Below, piece after piece: positions 657 to 49,978 of a stretch of 64,000 nucleotides of DNA. Location: positions 62,001 to 126,000 of the forward strand of contig NZ_MIEU01000014.1 of assembly GCF_001968825.1 (NCBI RefSeq), read 5' to 3'. The stretch is from Tersicoccus sp. Bi-70 (GTDB taxonomy: Bacteria > Actinomycetota > Actinomycetes > Actinomycetales > Micrococcaceae). Position numbers and translations under genes: made by a program. The number at the start of each line of letters is the position of its first letter. Positions within the stretch are counted from its first letter, which is position 1. A model generated the notes under the pieces. It was not told the DNA's origin. It worked only from the letters and a program-made list of their open reading frames with translations, and did not search any database.

Positions 657-3047
657 ATGTCCGAAGACACTGCCGAGAACGTCACCGAGACCATCGCCGC
701 GGCGCCCGAGACCAGCGCGCCGGACACGTCCCGCGCCTTCAACCTGGACACCGTCGAGCACGCCGCCACCACCCCGGACACCGAGCTGCCCTGGGCCGAG
801 CTGGGCCTGAAGGAGGACGAGTTCGCGCGCATCGGGCAGATCCTCGGCCGCCGGCCCACCGCCGCCGAGCTGGCCATGTACTCGGTGATGTGGTCCGAGC
901 ACTGCTCCTACAAGTCCTCCAAGATCCACCTGCGCCAGTTCGGCGACAAGGTCACCGACGCCATGAAGGAGCACCTGCTCGTCGGCATCGGCGAGAACGC
1001 CGGCGTCGTCGACATCGGGGACGGCTGGGCGGTGACCTTCAAGGTCGAGTCGCACAACCACCCGTCGTTCGTCGAGCCCTACCAGGGCGCCGCGACCGGC
1101 GTCGGCGGGATCGTCCGCGACATCATCTCGATGGGTGCCCGCCCGGTCGCCGTGATGGACCCGCTGCGCTTCGGCGCCATCGACCACCCGGACACCGCCC
1201 GGCTGGTGCACGGCATCGTCGCCGGCATCGGCGGGTACGGCAACTCCCTCGGCCTGCCCAACATCGGCGGCGAGCTCGTGTTCGACCCGGTCTACCAGGG
1301 CAACCCGCTGGTCAACGCCCTCGCGGTCGGCGTGCTGCGGCACGAGGACATCCGCCTGGCCAACGCCTCGGGCAAGGGAAACAAAGTCGTCCTCTTCGGG
1401 GCACGGACGGGAGGCGACGGCATCGGCGGCGCCTCCGTGCTCGCCTCCGAGTCCTTCGAGGGCTCCGGCAAGCCGGCCAAGCGGCCCGCGGTGCAGGTCG
1501 GCGACCCGTTCGCCGAGAAGGTGCTCATCGAGTGCTGCCTCGAGCTGTTCGCCGGCGGCGTCGTCGAGGGCATCCAGGACCTCGGCGCGGCCGGGATCTC
1601 CTGCGCCACCAGCGAGCTGGCGTCCAACGGCGACGGCGGCATGCACGTCGAGCTGACCGACGTGCTGCTGCGCGACCCGTCCCTGACGCCCGGCGAGATC
1701 CTCATGAGCGAGTCGCAGGAACGCATGATGGCGGTCGTCGCGCCCGAGAACGTCGCCGCGTTCGAGGCGATCATGGGCCGCTGGGCCGTCGAGTACTCCT
1801 GGCTCGGCGAGGTGACCGACACCGGCCGGCTCGTGATCGAGTGGGACGGCGAGGTGATCGTCGACGTCGACCCGCGCACCGTCGCGCACGAGGGGCCCGT
1901 CTACGACCGGCCGCAGGCCCGTCCGGACTGGCAGGACGCGACCCAGGCCGACCGGTTCGCCGGCTCAGCCGCGGACACCGACCGGCCCACCGGTGCCGCG
2001 CTGGGTGACGCCGTCGTCGCGCTGATGTCCTCCCCGAACCTGTGCTCGCCCGACTGGGTCACCGACCAGTTCGACCGGTACGTGCAGGGCAACACGGCGC
2101 TGGCGATGCCCGACGACGCCGGCGTGGTCCGCGTCGACGAGGGCACCGGCCTCGGCGTCGCCATCGCGACCGACGCCAATGGCCGCTACGCGTACCTCGA
2201 CCCGTACGAGGGGGCGCGGCTGGCGCTGGCCGAGTCGTACCGCAACGTCGCCACCACCGGTGCGAGGCCGCTCGCGGTCACCGACTGCCTGAACTTCGGC
2301 TCGCCCGAGGACCCCGCCGTCATGTGGCAGTTCGTCCAGACCGTCACGGGCCTCTCCGACGCGTGCCGCGACCTCGGTGTGCCCGTGACCGGCGGCAACG
2401 TCTCCCTCTACAACCAGACCGGCGGCGTGCCGATCCACCCGACGCCCGTCGTCGGCGTCCTCGGCGTGTTCGACGACGTCGCCCGGCGCACCCCGTCCGG
2501 CTGGCGCGAGGACGGGCAGGCGATCTACCTGCTCGGCTCGACCCGCGACGAGCTCGACGGCTCGGCCTGGGCGGGTCTGCGCGGCCACCTCGGCGGCCGT
2601 CCCCCGGCCGTGGACCTGGCCACGGAGAAGACCCTCGGCGAGATCCTCATCAACGCCTCCCGCGACGGCATGGTCGACGCGGCGCACGACCTGTCCACCG
2701 GCGGGCTCGCGGCGGCGCTGTCCGAGTCGTGCCTGCGGTACGACGTCGGGGCGCGGATCGGGCTGGACGAGGCGGCCGAGCGCGACGGGGTCGACGTCTT
2801 CACCCTGCTGTTCTCGGAGTCGCAGGGCCGGGCGCTCGTCGCCGTCCCGCGGTCCGAGGAGGTGCGGTTCACCGACATGTGCACGGCCCGGGGTTACCCG
2901 GCGATCCGGATCGGCGTCGTCGACGCGGTCGGCGCCGGCACGGACGACGCCCCGGCGCCCGCGCTGGACGTGCAGGGCCACTTCGCCCTGCCGCTGGCGC
3001 AGTTGCGGGAGGCGTGGTCCGCCACGCTCCCGTCGCACTTCGCCTGA
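657..3047 (+). CDS. purL: Phosphoribosylformylglycinamidine synthase subunit PurL (small type)
   Basis: ATP-dependent synthetase subunit that converts FGAR to FGAM using ammonia supplied by PurQ, with PurS as the usual third partner (not in the window). It has 796 residues, which fits the separate-subunit PurL type rather than the 1,200-1,300-residue fused form. The catalytic [10 protein letters not shown] segment is at about residues 80-89, and the two AIR-synthase-like halves follow in tandem. The first ~40 residues (Thr/Ala/Glu-rich) are a low-complexity extension typical of actinobacterial PurL. The start is ATG at 657, preceded by GAGGAGA. A palindromic repeat element follows the stop within about 20 bases. 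Confidence 0.96.
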
Positions 3048-3067
3048 GCCCGTCCCCTTCCCCTTCC

Positions 3068-3139
3068 GCCAGCTCGTCAATAGATGTTCCATCCGGGCCT
3101 GAATCCGGGCCTCGGTGAGCATCTGTTGACGAGCTGACG
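3068..3139. repeat. Palindromic intergenic repeat, copy 1
   Basis: First of four well-conserved copies of a 72-73 bp element. The left arm reads CGCCAGCTCGTCAATAGATG and the right arm is nearly its reverse complement, with a short GC-rich core that can form an inner hairpin. Dyad symmetry extends outward here (CCCTTCC on the left, GGAAGGG on the right). It starts 20 bases after the purL stop and ends 22 bases before the DinB gene start, so it could end transcription or stabilise the purL mRNA 3' end. It contains no coding capacity. Confidence 0.9.
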
Positions 3140-3161
3140 TGGAAGGGCGAAGGATCGAACG

Positions 3162-3668
3162 ATGGATGCACGCGATGTCTACCGCACACTCTTCGACGCG
3201 ATCGCCGAGTCGGTCGAGCGCACCGTGGGCGGCCTGAGCGCCGACCAGCTCAATGCGCGGCCGTTCGACGAGGCGAACTCGATCTCCTGGCTCGTCTGGC
3301 ACCTGACCCGGGTCCAGGACGACCACCTGGCGGATGCCTTCGACCACCGGCAGGTGTGGCCCCAGCGATGGAGCGCGGAGCTGGCCCTCGGGCTGCCGGA
3401 GGGCGACACCGGGTACGGGCACTCGTCCGAGCAGGTCGCCCAGGTGCAGGTGACCTCGGCGGACCTTCTCATCGGCTACCACCGGGACGTCCACCAGCAG
3501 ACCCTCGTCGACCTGGAGAGCCTCACTGCGGACTCCCTCGACGAGGTGATCGACGAGCGGTGGGATCCGCCCGTCACCCGCGGGGTGCGGCTCGCCAGCG
3601 TCGTCGGCGACTGCTACCAGCACCTCGGTCAGGCCGGCTACGTCCGGGGCCTCCTGCCCCACCTCTGA
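3162..3668 (+). CDS. DinB-fold / DUF664-type enzyme
   Basis: A 168-residue protein of the DinB four-helix-bundle superfamily, which includes mycothiol- and bacillithiol-dependent metalloenzymes. The metal-binding histidine pattern is visible: WLVWHLTRVQDDH near residue 47 and a second site in GDCYQHLGQAGYV near residue 150. The motif WHLTR, with a long helix before it, is typical of the actinobacterial DUF664 subgroup, where mycothiol S-transferase activity is known for some members. The actual substrate cannot be told from sequence. It is a single gene lying between two copies of the palindromic repeat, with no shared operon. There is no signal peptide. Confidence 0.8.
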   Translation: MDARDVYRTLFDAIAESVERTVGGLSADQLNARPFDEANSISWLVWHLTRVQDDHLADAFDHRQVWPQRWSAELALGLPEGDTGYGHSSEQVAQVQVTSADLLIGYHRDVHQQTLVDLESLTADSLDEVIDERWDPPVTRGVRLASVVGDCYQHLGQAGYVRGLLPHL

Positions 3669-3690
3669 GCCACCCCCTCTCTTTTCCTCT

Positions 3691-3762
3691 CGCCAGCTCG
3701 TCAATAGATGTCTCATCCGGCCCCAGACAGGGCTCCGGTGAGCATCTTTTGACGAGCTGGCG
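3691..3762. repeat. Palindromic intergenic repeat, copy 2
   Basis: Same orientation as copy 1. The left arm CGCCAGCTCGTCAATAGATG is intact. The right arm ends GACGAGCTGGCG. The inner core GCCC-N6-GGGC forms its own small hairpin. It sits between the convergent DinB and AbiEi-like genes, 22 bases after one stop and 5 bases from the other, a position consistent with a bidirectional terminator. Confidence 0.9.
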
Positions 3763-3767
3763 ACGGG

Positions 3768-4697
3768 TCAGGGGCGCCAGCCGTGGGCGATCAACGCCCG
3801 ACGCACGACGGCGACGGCCGAGCGCCCGCCGCCGAGGAGGTCGGTGCGGCTGATGCGCACCTCGATCCATCCGGCATCCGCCGCACGACGGGCGCGCCGG
3901 ATGTCCCGATCGATCTGCAGCGGGTCGGCGTGATGGGCACCCTCGTACTCGACGGCCACGCGGTACCGGACCGACGACAAGTCAGGCTCGTGCAAGCGGC
4001 TTCCGTTCTCATCGTGAATGGGCACGTTCACCTCGAACGGTGGAAGGCCCGCACCCGCGAGCGCCAGCCGCAACCGGGTCTCCTGCGGAGAGTCGGCACC
4101 GACGCGGACGGCCTGCAGCGCCGTCCGGGCGAGGACGACACCCTTCCGACGCGGGTGGGCGTGCAACAGGTCCTGGAGATCGGCGACACTGGCCAGCGGA
4201 TCGGACCGGTCATCCAGCCCGGACCGCGGTATCCGGACGAGATGATCCCCGAGCACCACCAGTCCGACGAAACCTGCCTCCGGCGCGAGGTCCAACCAGG
4301 TGCGCGCCGGCGTCGTCACCCGCACGCCGCCGTCGAGAACCACCTCGTCCGCCAGCAATCGGGACTGGTGCGCCGCCACCCCCGGCCGCCGGACGCGGAC
4401 ACTGCGCTCCGGGACCGTCAGATGGATGACGTCGGATTCGACGGGCGGCCAGCCACTCGGGAATCCCCACCAGCGAGCCGCGGTGACGTGGGACAGCGCT
4501 GCCCGCGGGTGCGTCCGCGCCATCACCGCCGCGAGCTCCACGGCGTCGAGCCCGGCGCCGGCGACTGATCGAAGTCCCCGCCCGTGCCGTTCATAGACGA
4601 TGCCGCGCAGCTGTCCGCTGCTCAGTCCGGCGGCTCTTCCCTCGGTGACGCAGAAGCCTCGGGGCAGCTGTTCGGGCGGATGATGGCGCACTCCCAT
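3768..4697 (-). CDS. AbiEi-like antitoxin-domain protein with DUF559/Vsr-type nuclease-fold C-terminus
   Basis: A 309-residue protein of a large actinobacterial family usually annotated as AbiEi-domain or DUF559 proteins. The N-terminal part (about 20-150) has the winged-helix-like stretch with LSSGQLRGIVYERHGRGL, followed by ALSHVTAARWWG. The C-terminal part (about 205-305) carries LHEPDLSS and VAVEYEGAHH, which match the PD-(D/E)XK-like core of very-short-patch-repair-type proteins. No cognate AbiEii toxin gene is adjacent, so it is an orphan. Palindromic repeats in opposite orientation lie just outside both ends (3691-3762 and 4752-4824). Function is unproven. The family is often implicated in defence or regulation. 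Confidence 0.7.
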   Translation of the reverse strand: MGVRHHPPEQLPRGFCVTEGRAAGLSSGQLRGIVYERHGRGLRSVAGAGLDAVELAAVMARTHPRAALSHVTAARWWGFPSGWPPVESDVIHLTVPERSVRVRRPGVAAHQSRLLADEVVLDGGVRVTTPARTWLDLAPEAGFVGLVVLGDHLVRIPRSGLDDRSDPLASVADLQDLLHAHPRRKGVVLARTALQAVRVGADSPQETRLRLALAGAGLPPFEVNVPIHDENGSRLHEPDLSSVRYRVAVEYEGAHHADPLQIDRDIRRARRAADAGWIEVRISRTDLLGGGRSAVAVVRRALIAHGWRP

Positions 4698-4751
4698 GCC
4701 GGCATCGTGCCCGACCAGCGCTCCATCCGCGTCCAGTTGTCCACAGACGCA

Positions 4752-4824
4752 CGCCAGCTCGTCAATTGATGCTCACCGACGCCCGGTTTCGGGGCCTGAT
4801 GGAACATCTATTGACGAGCTGGCG
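4752..4824. repeat. Palindromic intergenic repeat, copy 3 (inverted orientation)
   Basis: Opposite orientation to copies 1 and 2, judged by the asymmetric inner part (GCTCACC on the left, GATGGAA on the right). The terminal arms are 19/20 complementary, the best of all copies. It lies upstream of the AbiEi-like gene and 18 bases downstream of the amylase stop. Confidence 0.9.
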
Positions 4825-4841
4825 TGTGAGTCCGGGATGGG

Positions 4842-7340
4842 TCAGTTGTTGGAGATGATGTGGGTGGCGTGGTCGTACGTGAACGTCACCGACCGGGTCG
4901 CGGCCACGTGCAGCGCGATGTTGCCGCCGTTGGGGGCGCCCCCGTCACCGTAGTTCTCGTCCCACTTCTTGTTCAGCGCCGCCTTGTACTCGTAGTCGCC
5001 GGCCGGCAGCGTGACGGTCAGCTTCCACAGGCCCGTCGCCGGGTCCTTGGTCATCTGCGCCTGGTCGCACGCCGGATCCCAGTCCCCCGCGCAGCCGATC
5101 TCCGAGTCGAGAGACCCGGCGACGGCGACGTTCGTCGGCTCCGGCGTCTGCACCGGCCCGGTCGGCGCCGGCGTCACCGGCGTCGGGACGGTGCCCGCCG
5201 CCGGGGCGCTCGTCGACACGTGCCGCGCGTTGTCCAGCACCAGGGCCCGGTACTCGACCCCGGTGCCCGGCGTCAGGGCGCTGGTGTCGTGGAACACCTG
5301 GTACGGCGCCGTGTCGTCGGTGCCGATGTTCTGCCAGTCCTTGCCCGGGGTCCGCGCCTGGAAGGTCACCTCGTAGAAGGAGGAGCCGGCGACGTCGGCC
5401 CGCACGTTCAGCCGGGTGTGGTCCGCGCCGGCGGTCTCGACGGCGCTGATCTGCGCCGTCGGGGCGACGTGCGACGGGAGGATGCGCCCGTTCGACGCGT
5501 ACACGGTGGCCGAGAGAGCCGGGGCCCCCAGCCGCACGCTGCCGCCGCCGTTGCTGAACGCGAGCTTCGGGCCGGATCCGTAGATGCGGGTGAAGGAGCT
5601 GCGCGGCAGGAACGTGGTGATCGGCGCCGTCTTCGCCGTGGTGCTGTTGTTCAGCACGACGACGTACTCCCGCTGGGTGGCGCGGTCGATCCGGGAGAAC
5701 GCGTAGATGCCCGGGCCGGTGTCGGCGTAGCGGTTCTGGTGGGCACCGTTGCGCAGCGCCGGGTACTGTTTGGTGAGCGCCGACAGCTCCGCGATGGAGC
5801 GGTACAGCGGGTGCGTGGTGACGTAGTTGTCCTTCGCGTGCGTGGCCGTCGTGCCGATCAGGTCGTCCGTGAGGTACTCAGGCACCTTCGAGGCGAACAT
5901 CGTCTGCCGCGCGGACTGGTCGCCGCCGGGGCCGGTGAAGCCCTGCTCGTCGCCGTAGTAGACCACCGGGTTGCCGCGCGAGAAGTACATCAGCTCGTGC
6001 GCCAGCCGGTCCTTCGCCAGCCACACGCCGTCGCCGGCGCCGGCGTTGTCCGCCTGGATGAAGGAACCGATGCGACCCATGTCGTGGTTCCCGAGGAACG
6101 TGGGCAGCTGGTAGACGTTCGAGTCCGCGTCCGTGTACCAGTCGTCACCGGCGAAGAACGTCTGCAGGTCCGCCGCCGAGGTGCCTTTCGAGGCGTAGTT
6201 GCGCGCGGCGTCCTGGAACGGGAAGTCCAGCACCGACTGCATCTTGTTGGTGGTCGTGTAGCGGCTGGTGAAGTCGCGGGAGGTGTCGAAGACCTCGCCG
6301 AACATGAAGAACTGGCTCTTGCCGGCCTCGTGCGCGAACTGCAGCACCTTCGGCCCGAACGTCTGCCAGAACTCGTCGTTGACGTGCTTCATCGTGTCGA
6401 TGCGGAAGCCGTCGACGCCGAAGTCCTTGATCCACGTCTCGTAGATGTCCATCATCCCGTTGACGACCTGCGGCTTCTCCGTGAACAGGTCGTCGAGGCC
6501 GGAGAAGTCGCCGTACGTCGAGTTCTCACCCTGGTAGGTGGTGTCGCCGCGGTTGTGGTAGTTCGTGACGTCGTTCAGCCAGGCCGGCACCTTCAGGTTC
6601 GTCTCCGCCGGGTCCAGGATCGGCCGGTACGGGAACGAGACGGCCGGGTCGAGCGGCGGGAACGTGTTCGTGCCCGCGTAGGCCTTGTCGTCGAACGCGT
6701 TCCCGTTGGCGTCCTTGTACGGGAACAGCGCCTTGGTGATGTACGGCATCCGGGCCTTGGGCTCGTAGCTGATCACGTCGGCCGTGTGGTTGGTGATGAT
6801 GTCGAAGTACACCTTCATGCCCCGCTGGTGGGCGGCGCTGATCAGGCTCTTCAGGTCGGCGTTGGTGCCCAGGTGCGGGTCGATGCGCGTGAAGTCCGTG
6901 ATCCAGTACCCGTGGTAGCCGGCCGAGGGGCCGTCCTCGAGCTGGACCGCCTTGTTCTTGAAGCTCGGGGTCAGCCAGATGGCCGTCGTCCCGAGCCCCT
7001 TGATGTAGTCGACCTTCGACGTCAGACCCTTGAGGTCACCGCCGTTGTAGAAGCCCTTGCTCGTGGGATCGAAGCCGGAGACCAGCCGGTTCGACCCGAG
7101 GCCGCCGGTGTCGTTGGCCGTCGTCCCGTTGGCGAACCGGTCCGCCATCACGAAGTAGAAGTTCTCGTTGGTGACGGGCGCCCGCAGTGAATGGTCGGCG
7201 ACGTCGGACACCGGGGGCGACGGCGGCGCGACCGGTGCGGCCTGGGCGGGGGCGACGGCCCCTCCGATCAGCGCGGTCGTGGTCAGAGCCGTCGTGAGCG
7301 CGGCCGCGAGGGCAGCGCGAGACAGGCGGGGTGGGAGCAC
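4842..7340 (-). CDS. Secreted multidomain GH13 alpha-amylase family enzyme
   Basis: An 832-residue extracellular alpha-glucan hydrolase. A Sec signal peptide covers about residues 1-35 (ending AQAAP). The GH13 barrel spans about 58-520 and keeps the full catalytic set: Asp315 in GFRIDTMKH, Glu349 in FMFGEVFD and Asp420 in FLGNHDMGR. A beta-sandwich module (about 625-720), a Pro/Thr linker and a C-terminal pullulanase-type starch-associated module (about 735-832, with GLWKLTV and GDYEYKAALN) follow. The start is GTG at 7340 with GGAGGT five bases upstream. It probably supplies malto-oligosaccharides to the importer at 57.8-61.1 kb. Exact specificity (amylase, neopullulanase, cyclomaltodextrinase) is open. 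Confidence 0.9.
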   Translation of the reverse strand: MLPPRLSRAALAAALTTALTTTALIGGAVAPAQAAPVAPPSPPVSDVADHSLRAPVTNENFYFVMADRFANGTTANDTGGLGSNRLVSGFDPTSKGFYNGGDLKGLTSKVDYIKGLGTTAIWLTPSFKNKAVQLEDGPSAGYHGYWITDFTRIDPHLGTNADLKSLISAAHQRGMKVYFDIITNHTADVISYEPKARMPYITKALFPYKDANGNAFDDKAYAGTNTFPPLDPAVSFPYRPILDPAETNLKVPAWLNDVTNYHNRGDTTYQGENSTYGDFSGLDDLFTEKPQVVNGMMDIYETWIKDFGVDGFRIDTMKHVNDEFWQTFGPKVLQFAHEAGKSQFFMFGEVFDTSRDFTSRYTTTNKMQSVLDFPFQDAARNYASKGTSAADLQTFFAGDDWYTDADSNVYQLPTFLGNHDMGRIGSFIQADNAGAGDGVWLAKDRLAHELMYFSRGNPVVYYGDEQGFTGPGGDQSARQTMFASKVPEYLTDDLIGTTATHAKDNYVTTHPLYRSIAELSALTKQYPALRNGAHQNRYADTGPGIYAFSRIDRATQREYVVVLNNSTTAKTAPITTFLPRSSFTRIYGSGPKLAFSNGGGSVRLGAPALSATVYASNGRILPSHVAPTAQISAVETAGADHTRLNVRADVAGSSFYEVTFQARTPGKDWQNIGTDDTAPYQVFHDTSALTPGTGVEYRALVLDNARHVSTSAPAAGTVPTPVTPAPTGPVQTPEPTNVAVAGSLDSEIGCAGDWDPACDQAQMTKDPATGLWKLTVTLPAGDYEYKAALNKKWDENYGDGGAPNGGNIALHVAATRSVTFTYDHATHIISNN

Positions 7341-14008: not shown

Positions 14009-14020
14009 GTGAGATCAACT

Positions 14021-14107
14021 CCATCGATCCTGGCGGTAGCACCCTTCCGACGGATCGGTGGGTTGCTGCGGCGTCGACGAGCCAGATCTCTCGGCCGCTC
14101 GGGATGG
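14021..14107 (-). ncRNA. SAM-I (S-box) riboswitch upstream of ssuB
   Basis: Read on the minus strand, the element opens with CCATC and closes with GATGG (stem P1). It carries the SAM-I core pieces GAGCGGCCGAGAGATCTGG, GACGCCGCAGCAACC and GGTGCTACCGCCAG in the right order. The closing P1 strand contains the ssuB ribosome-binding sequence, about 12 bases before the GTG start, which suggests direct translational repression when SAM is bound. It is closely similar to the element at 14815-14909 and points the other way. Confidence 0.9.
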
Positions 14108-14210
14108 TATGCCGCCCACTGTAACGGCACGACGGGGCCGCTGGGCAACTCGGGGACGCCGCCGGCGCCACGCACCGTCATACTTCGCCGCCCCCTCTGC
14201 GCCGCCTCCT

Positions 14211-14272
14211 GCTCGTCGACACATGCTCCGGACGCGGCTCGTCGAGGCCGGATCGAGCATCGGGTGACGAGC
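14211..14272. repeat. Palindromic intergenic repeat, degenerate copy 4
   Basis: A decayed relative of the 72-bp family. GCTCGTC at the left and GACGAGC at the right are kept, with ATGCTC and GAGCAT inside them. The AATAG part and the outer CGCCA arm have changed. It lies 30 bases upstream of the CoA-binding protein gene, between the two riboswitches. Confidence 0.6.
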
Positions 14273-14302
14273 CGGCGAGGGACCGGGGCGGAGAATGAGG
14301 GC

Positions 14303-14728: not shown

Positions 14729-14814
14729 ACGCCGCTCGTCGACAGCGCGCGACGTGACGCCGGATGGCGGACGCGGGTTGCCCCGGGCCGCGCGGGCGTC
14801 GCAGAATGGCAGCG

Positions 14815-14909
14815 CCATCCCGAGCGGCCGAGAGATCTGGATCGATGACGCCGCAGCAACCGTGGTCGAAGAACCGCTGACCACACGGTGCTACCGCCAG
14901 AAGCGATGG
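14815..14909 (+). ncRNA. SAM-I (S-box) riboswitch upstream of sfnG-metY
   Basis: The element has the P1 pairing CCATC/GATGG, the core GAGCGGCCGAGAGATCTGG, the GACGCCGCAGCAACC segment and GGTGCTACCGCCAG. About 100 bases separate it from the sfnG start, unlike the ssuB copy. This spacer holds CAGGG-N5-CCCTG (14940-14954) and further GC-rich hairpins that could form a terminator or an anti-SD structure, so the mode of control may differ. There is no clear U-tract. Confidence 0.9.
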
Positions 14910-15012
14910 AAGAGAGCGCACAGCAATCTTGAGCATCGGACAGGGCCGTTCCCTGCCCGGGCCGCACATTGCCGGGACCCGACAGCGGTATGTCTCCCCG
15001 AAGGAGATCCCG

Positions 15013-27814: not shown

Positions 27815-27920
27815 CGCTGAGTCCGCCGGTTGCAGCCGCGCGGATCGCTGAGTCCGCCGGTTCCGCCCTTCCGCCCCGGTCATTGACCACCCGCTGAGGG
27901 TGGAAGTGGCGGACTCAGCG
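27815..27920. repeat. Composite palindromic element downstream of the hydrolase gene
   Basis: CGCTGAGTCCGCCGGTT occurs at 27815 and again at 27846. The reverse complement of its first 13 bases, GGCGGACTCAGCG, occurs at 27908. The pair 27846/27908 makes a 75-bp palindrome very like the 72-73 bp family in size and layout but different in sequence. It sits between convergent genes. Confidence 0.65.
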
Positions 27921-49905: not shown

Positions 49906-49978
49906 CGCCAGCTCGTCAATAGATGCTCACCGTGACCCCGGATCGGGCCCGGATGGGACATCTGGTGACGAGCTGGCG
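49906..49978. repeat. Palindromic intergenic repeat, copy 5
   Basis: Same orientation as copy 3 (GCTCACC left, GATGGGA right). It fills the gap between the convergent MarR and echA genes, 12 bases after one stop and 14 bases from the other. The left arm matches CGCCAGCTCGTCAATAGATG fully. The right arm has lost one base of the AT pair next to GATG. Confidence 0.9.

Follow-up and report, generated by a model that had tools for sequence, protein, structure and literature searches.

Palindromes in the window

The window (the whole stretch of 64,000 nucleotides analysed here, C14:62001-126000 of the Tersicoccus sp. Bi-70 genome, which comprises 3,479,503 bases in 18 contigs with an N50 of 556,029) contains four palindromes of 72-73 bp, as claimed in the initial annotation, the first of which starts at 3067 and had been placed at 3068 (Table 1). 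The arm reported to be shared by them was confirmed, since CGCCAGCTCGTCAATAGATG (≤ 3 mismatches) gave eight matches in the window, all within the four copies, against none in 100 dinucleotide shuffles of the window, and so was the closeness to stop codons. As the outer part of the element is a near-perfect palindrome, orientation could be assigned from the halves of the core only; the core of copy 3, once reverse-complemented, matches that of copy 1 at 85%. The ORF separating copies 2 and 3 had no match in an NCBIfam search. Rfam at gathering score gave no family at the copies over the whole window, and its E-value mode applied to 3000-4900 returned only sub-gathering matches (best mir-549, E 0.0017). 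The weak fifth copy was excluded from the anatomy (102 copies), folding, tract and cleaned placement figures given below, and was kept in the Bi-70 gene-context count (49 copies) and in the mapping of sites between species.

Table 1. Features of the window, with the complete insertion element of contig C11 in the last row
Feature	Position	Strand	Length (bp)	Arms	Nearest called stop (nt)	MFE (kcal/mol)	Setting or assignment
purL-like gene	657..3047	+					AIR synthase and FGAR-AT linker domains; upstream of copy 1
Copy 1	3067..3139		73	3067-3086, 3120-3139	19	-51.9	purL stop before it; following gene 22 nt away
Mycothiol transferase gene	3162..3668	+					DinB superfamily; flanked by copies 1 and 2
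Copy 2	3691..3762		72	3691-3710, 3743-3762	5	-51.2	convergent gene pair around
ORF	3768..4697	-					weak match to REase_MTES_1575, under curated cut-off
Copy 3	4752..4824		73	4752-4771, 4805-4824	17	-42.4	nearest stop is that of the minus-strand amylase gene
Alpha-amylase/pullulanase-like gene	4842..7340	-					stop codon towards copy 3
SAM riboswitch	14018-14110	-					divergent from the next
Weak fifth copy	about 14206-14277						F1 type, decayed-looking, flanked by the two riboswitches
SAM riboswitch	14812-14912	+					about 700 bp from the previous
Copy 4	49906..49978		73	49906-49925, 49959-49978	12	-47.8	convergent MarR-like and enoyl-CoA hydratase-like genes on either side
Complete IS481-family element	L187:627-1741 (G000:C11)		about 1,115				GCTAGC duplication

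Copy number in Tersicoccus

Further copies exist genome-wide, so that their absence, which the initial annotation had named as refuting it, is excluded. The 17-nt arm (≤ 3 mismatches) had 53 forward and 50 reverse matches across the Bi-70 genome, compared with 0 and 1 matches of the reversed-control arm. Three Tersicoccus genomes were compared, namely Bi-70 (G000), T. solisilvae (G045), and G015, which fits T. phoenicis DSM 30849. A covariance model run on both strands gave 114, 132, and 19 matches, corresponding to at least about 57 (Bi-70), 66 (T. solisilvae), and 10 (G015) places; 150 candidates were scored per genome, and the Bi-70 figure may be low. Among 245 genomes of the family, these three were the only ones with more than two occurrences of the F1 arm (≤ 2 mismatches), and a search with the two-arm pattern in a contig database, in which records close to the window's genome may be missing, returned 23 stretches, all from T. 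solisilvae. The Bi-70 copies are clustered, 14 of 54 having a neighbour copy within 2.5 kb (uniform placement: mean 4.05, maximum 16 in 5000 simulations), and their density is uneven among contigs (chi-square p 2.9e-4), which is partly explained by this clustering.

Anatomy of the unit

The alignment of 48 Bi-70 copies runs from CGCCAGCTCGTCAATAGATG through the core to the mirror arm. Together with 54 copies from 40 T. solisilvae stretches they form a set of 102, of which 100 measure 72-73 bp (47/48 in Bi-70 and 53/54 in T. solisilvae) in a search that allowed 66-81 bp. Identity among copies is 0.875 (Bi-70) and 0.926 (T. solisilvae) in the arms, and 0.535 and 0.532, respectively, in the core. 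The unit consists of an outer arm (11 bp), an inner arm (9 bp), a core of 32-33 bp and then the mirror, 73 bp altogether; the outer arm can change provided pairing holds, the inner arm CAATAGATG is retained across genera, and the core has a fixed length and an almost free sequence.

Whole elements fold at -48.4 kcal/mol compared with -22.1 for shuffles. The Bi-70 cores, at -12.56 kcal/mol, also fold far more strongly than their mononucleotide shuffles at -8.54, as is due to the palindromic consensus common to the copies, but equal chimeras of unrelated halves both in Bi-70 (-12.42, p 0.53) and in T. solisilvae (-12.40 vs. -12.02, p 0.54), and the 34 pairs of the Bi-70 alignment are paired in 78.5% of cases vs. 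78.7% in shuffles, i.e., without excess. The match of core energies with chimeras gives no support for selection on the inner hairpin as part of the fold on which the initial annotation had suggested selection; covariation in the core was rejected because of this match and that of the pair counts with shuffles. Constraint on the arms, also suggested there, was supported; the features that stay constant in the family are the sequence of the arms, their pairing, and the length of the whole element. Arm pairing is modestly above that of chimeras (0.919 vs. 0.908, p 0.014 in Bi-70; 0.953 vs. 0.939, p 0.0015 in T. solisilvae), arm position 7 in the 54 T. solisilvae copies is C/C in 34, G/G in 10, mixed in 9, and other in 1 (p 1e-4), and 13 of the 20 arm pairs are altered on both sides across subfamilies and species, a number reached in 0/500 shuffles, with 30 rows hand-picked to span subfamilies and shuffles that ignore relatedness.

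Position relative to genes

Gene ends were taken from a home-made codon-usage caller retrained on GC3, for which reason single gene calls may err. A copy typically lies 10-25 nt downstream of a stop codon. In Bi-70 (n = 49, weak copy included) 23 gaps are convergent, 20 tandem, and 1 divergent (the weak copy), with 5 copies inside genes as called, while in T. solisilvae (n = 54) the corresponding numbers are 22, 26, 1, and 4, plus 1 at an edge. The placement behind genes noted in the window was thus borne out in the pooled set without the weak copy (n = 102), where 45 convergent and 46 tandem positions stand against 1 divergent among the 92 classified, the other 10 being inside or at an edge. 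Gaps ≥ 90 bp without a copy (n = 267) comprise 23 convergent, 158 tandem, and 86 divergent ones, giving a convergent excess of p 1.6e-15 and a divergent deficit of p 4e-12 for the copies (Fisher). The stop side is the closer one in 37 of the 46 tandem gaps (medians 16 and 46 nt). At L057:1970-2042, an F1 copy apparently lies within an ORF, and the T. solisilvae orthologue has a different sequence there.

The stretches between stop codon and element (n = 133) contain 0.55 C and 0.20 G, compared with 0.43 and 0.35 at element-free gene ends (n = 429), and their pyrimidine share is 0.71 vs. 0.54 (p 3e-27). This C-rich, G-poor tract presumably resembles rut-like leaders. Compared with its unoccupied orthologue, the occupied site has the stronger tract in 7 of 8 cases, a small set based on per-site means made by hand after dropping 2 of 10 rows (no gene end; apparent mis-call); "unoccupied" denotes here the lack of an intact F1 element, and in 3 of the 8 cases there is a palindrome that is decayed or of another kind.

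History and mobility

When the flanks of Bi-70 copies could be mapped to T. solisilvae stretches, a copy was present there in 24 of 27 cases, a figure that is biased because these stretches were selected around copies. Two-way mapping used 864 kb of Bi-70 (C14 and C16, the copy-richest contigs): from Bi-70 to T. solisilvae (n = 28), 12 sites were present, 3 absent, and 13 unmapped, and in the other direction (n = 54), 11 were present, 7 absent, and 36 unmapped. By eye, 3 of the 7 "absent" Bi-70 sites carry a decayed or different-arm palindrome, so that 14 of the 18 mapped T. solisilvae sites hold some palindrome in both species. Differences in presence and absence between relatives, which the initial annotation had proposed to look for, were found between the two species. 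Neither clean empty sites nor target duplications of the palindrome were seen in the orthologous gaps, which are too diverged for a footprint.

In 24 orthologous rows (from 23 sites, since one T. solisilvae copy is counted twice), arms agree at 0.88-0.89 and flanks at 0.70-0.73, while cores agree at 0.72 vs. 0.66 for unrelated copies; 7 of the 24 cores exceed the 95th percentile of unrelated cores, hence part of the core sequence is inherited. The length differs by 0 or 1 in 23 of the 24 rows, and the distance from stop codon to element by a median of 9 nt. The T. solisilvae loci L167 and L169 share 97% of their cores within unrelated flanks, the likeness ends exactly at 73 bp, and the Bi-70 site matching L169 is without an element; this is a recent copying of the whole 73-bp unit, and the single clear case. 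At L041:1677-2477 of Bi-70, two F1 copies bracket about 650 bp missing from T. solisilvae, whose counterpart has one F1 copy, and recombination between copies is possible. At L153:18982-20000 of T. solisilvae, adjacent genes with similar C-termini, which we take to be DsbA/FrnE-like, form an apparent tandem duplication in which each gene has an F1 copy behind it, the second gene being cut at the stretch end.

A purely selfish, MITE-like element devoid of any host role, with a gene-end bias produced by the loss of insertions in ORFs and promoters, would account for the whole-unit copying, the species-specific sites, the clustering, the decayed copies, and the copy within an ORF. It is at odds with most mappable sites being common to both species and with the stronger pyrimidine tract at occupied sites; moreover, the conserved arms and fixed length beside flanks of only about 0.7 imply that old copies are not decaying freely. 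We regard this explanation as unlikely, albeit the least so among the alternatives considered here.

As to the mover, 12 intervals bounded by closely spaced copies contain genes that look ordinary by eye, which gives no support for an autonomous element there, and no mobilising enzyme was identified among these genes. Movement of a REP element by a RAYT (Y1) transposase would fit the REPIN/BIME-like location, the palindromy, and the use as an IS target, but Y1_Tnp (PF01797) had no match in the Bi-70 genome in a search that was positive in 5 of 14 control genomes, and the arm consensus, inspected by eye, is without a GTAG-tagged short hairpin; already disfavoured, this explanation appears very improbable.

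An IS481-family element in the palindromes

In Bi-70, the assembly is broken at an IS inside palindromes at two pairs of contig ends. The complete element on C11 (Table 1) is 96% like the IS ends found in these palindromes, and its transposase matches NF033577 (IS481 family) at 3e-103. In Bi-70, 2 of 3 insertions lie in palindromes, and the matching of contig ends gives TCTATC and TCTATT as their probable duplications. For T. solisilvae, the IS is known from its ends alone (93-94% alike over 95 bases); the 4 left ends and the 2 right ends, which represent at least 4 insertions, each lie within a palindrome at the same hexamer, and in both species together the element is inside a palindrome in 6 of 7 distinguishable insertions. 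TCTATY occurs 21 times within copies and 44 times outside them in 864 kb of Bi-70, so its rarity accounts for part, but probably not all, of the preference for palindromes. The landing site of the IS481-family element is the inner arm. The ends of the resident IS481 element differ from those of the palindrome.

Other arm types and other genera

A second arm type, F2 (CGWCTGGTCAATAGATG-like), with the same architecture occurs in G015 and at a few places of T. solisilvae. The gap between purL and the mycothiol transferase gene has F1 arms in Bi-70 (copy 1) and F2 arms in T. solisilvae. An F1+F2 model, run with stricter filters and 20 candidates scored per genome, matched 8 of the 245 family genomes, 5 of them outside Tersicoccus; by eye, the inner arm is present in G132, G142, and G192, and absent from G090 and G104. 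The exact pattern CAATAGATGN{18,48}CATCTATTG was found in 7 of the 245 genomes (reversed control 0), with 8 places in G000, 44 in G045, 3 in G075, 2 in G132, 1 each in G147, G181, and G192, and none in G015, which extends the distribution to three Micrococcaceae genera besides Tersicoccus. Outside Tersicoccus, the outer arms vary (AACTGGCCCG, AACTAACCCG, AACTGCCCCG, CTGGAGGT, and others) yet match themselves within an element; of the 8 exact-pattern places, 7 have an inner-arm span of 50, and the one in G192 has a span of 40. A called stop codon lies within 25 nt in 10 of 11 outside places, L322 being without a called neighbour; these calls were made with the Tersicoccus-trained caller, and several gene scores are low.

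An order-wide search of 396 genomes (50-bp span, 2 mismatches) matched three, i.e., two Tersicoccus and G468, whose match looks like chance; this sample includes 35 genomes of the family, the other-genus positives not being among them. The arm variant CCAGCTCGCGGAGAT was not accepted as a family despite a few G015 palindromes carrying it, its counts on both strands vs. the reversed control being 65 vs. 69 (G000), 58 vs. 52 (G045), and 60 vs. 34 (G015). Matches in viral contigs (23 exact, CAATAGATGN{21,34}CATCTATTG) were read as chance; their loci all have a GC of 0.21-0.46, a varied span, and no matching outer arm.

The constancy of length and span might also reflect a duplex DNA site, with a protein touching both arms on one helix face in fixed phasing and the core as a spacer. 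Copies of 72-73 bp despite cores only about 53% alike, the near-constant length as against the variable stop distance at orthologous sites, and the inner-arm span outside the genus, where the one exception is about one helical turn shorter, would all fit, although this 40-bp class is known from a single genome. A sequence-reading dimer does not explain outer arms that vary among elements of one genome and still self-match, nor does such a site require placement behind stop codons, and we think that this explanation is improbable.

A broader proposal, which we consider possible but doubtful, is a Micrococcaceae superfamily of palindromic mobile repeats, in which CAATAGATG at a 50-bp (or 40-bp) span would be read by a putative non-RAYT mobiliser, outer arms would be rewritten lineage by lineage via paired changes, and old sites would be re-armed in place, the last point resting on the different arms of the two species in the purL/mycothiol transferase gap. 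No description of these Micrococcaceae palindromes was found in the open-licence literature searched, preprints excluded.

A REP-like repeat as a putative 3'-end hairpin

The type proposed in the initial annotation, REP/BIME-like or a non-autonomous element, agrees with the many copies behind genes, the differences between species, and the constraint on the arms. The explanation that we favour, and to which we give an even chance, is a REP-like non-autonomous repeat that would act as a 3'-end hairpin and would be spread by a putative enzyme in trans. Upon transcription of the upstream gene, the arms would form a long RNA hairpin directly behind the stop codon, which would define or protect the 3' terminus of the mRNA, either together with Rho or by itself as a U-poor terminator, and would serve from both sides between convergent genes. 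The enzyme would recognise the inner arms, and copies would persist chiefly at places where such a hairpin does no harm or is of use. This reading is favoured by the location at gene ends, the C-rich tract before the element, the strong folding of whole elements, the pairing and paired changes of the arms, and the copied pair L167/L169. At least 4 T within the next 8 nt follow only 13 of 133 element ends, therefore the element is not a canonical intrinsic terminator. Further points stand against the 3'-hairpin reading: a plain hairpin requires neither a fixed core length nor an inner arm common to several genera, about 57 places are there for some 3,100 genes, and the location at gene ends may reflect tolerance only.

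Structured U-poor 3' ends make up 353 of 1,427 mapped ends in the GC-rich Streptomyces clavuligerus (PMC8269248). The Tersicoccus stems share with U-poor (I-shaped) terminators and Rho 3' ends of GC-rich actinobacteria, as described there, a strong stem without a U-tract after a stop codon, but, unlike them, form a family of related sequences that is dispersed and keeps its arms. With GTAG-REP, REPIN, and BIME they have in common the dispersal of palindromes, a preference for positions behind genes where the gap is convergent or tandem, and paired inverted units that are targeted by IS (PMC3733652; PMC1525189); unlike these, the Tersicoccus element is a single unit of 73 bp, in which arms of 20 bp enclose a fixed-length core of nearly free sequence, it is without the GTAG-tagged hairpin unit, and a Y1 transposase was not found in Bi-70. 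CGTC-REP, including Neisseria dRS3, are similar in having no known dedicated transposase, head-to-head dimers, and heterogeneous stems, and consist of CGTC followed by a stem of 8-9 bp and a loop of 4-5 nt (PMC3733652). In contrast, the partner of the bases that follow CGTC in the window's four copies is the far arm, on the other side of the core of 32-33 bp, and F2 and the arms of other genera are without CGTC. Because the defining features were tested and do not hold, the palindromes were classed neither as RAYT-REP nor as CGTC-REP; the terms Arthrobacter, actinobacteri, and Micrococc are absent from the main text of PMC3733652. Insertion at one point of a dispersed palindrome is shared with REP-targeting IS (IS1397, ISKpn1, IS621, ISPpu9/10, and others), for which the families IS3, IS110, IS4, IS256, and IS5 are given in PMC1525189, the main text of which does not contain IS481, the family found in the Tersicoccus palindromes.

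Dispersed palindromes of high-GC actinobacteria, with no Y1 found in Bi-70, a cross-genus inner arm, self-matching outer arms, and IS481 landing, would be an independent case for how such repeats move, and would let one ask whether they shape mRNA 3' ends. What is known of REP biology comes mostly from proteobacteria and from RAYT enzymes.

Further palindromes

A different family of 69-75 bp, with arms near TGAGTCCGCCGGTTCCGCCCT and a centre near GGTCTTTGACC, is present at 27846-27920 of the window, in a convergent gap, as well as at L145:6103 and L176:11033. Another palindrome, of 63-64 bp and with ATCGGGACCGTTGTTGCCAT-like arms, has three copies in Bi-70 (G000:C16:216467, 232337, and 232525).
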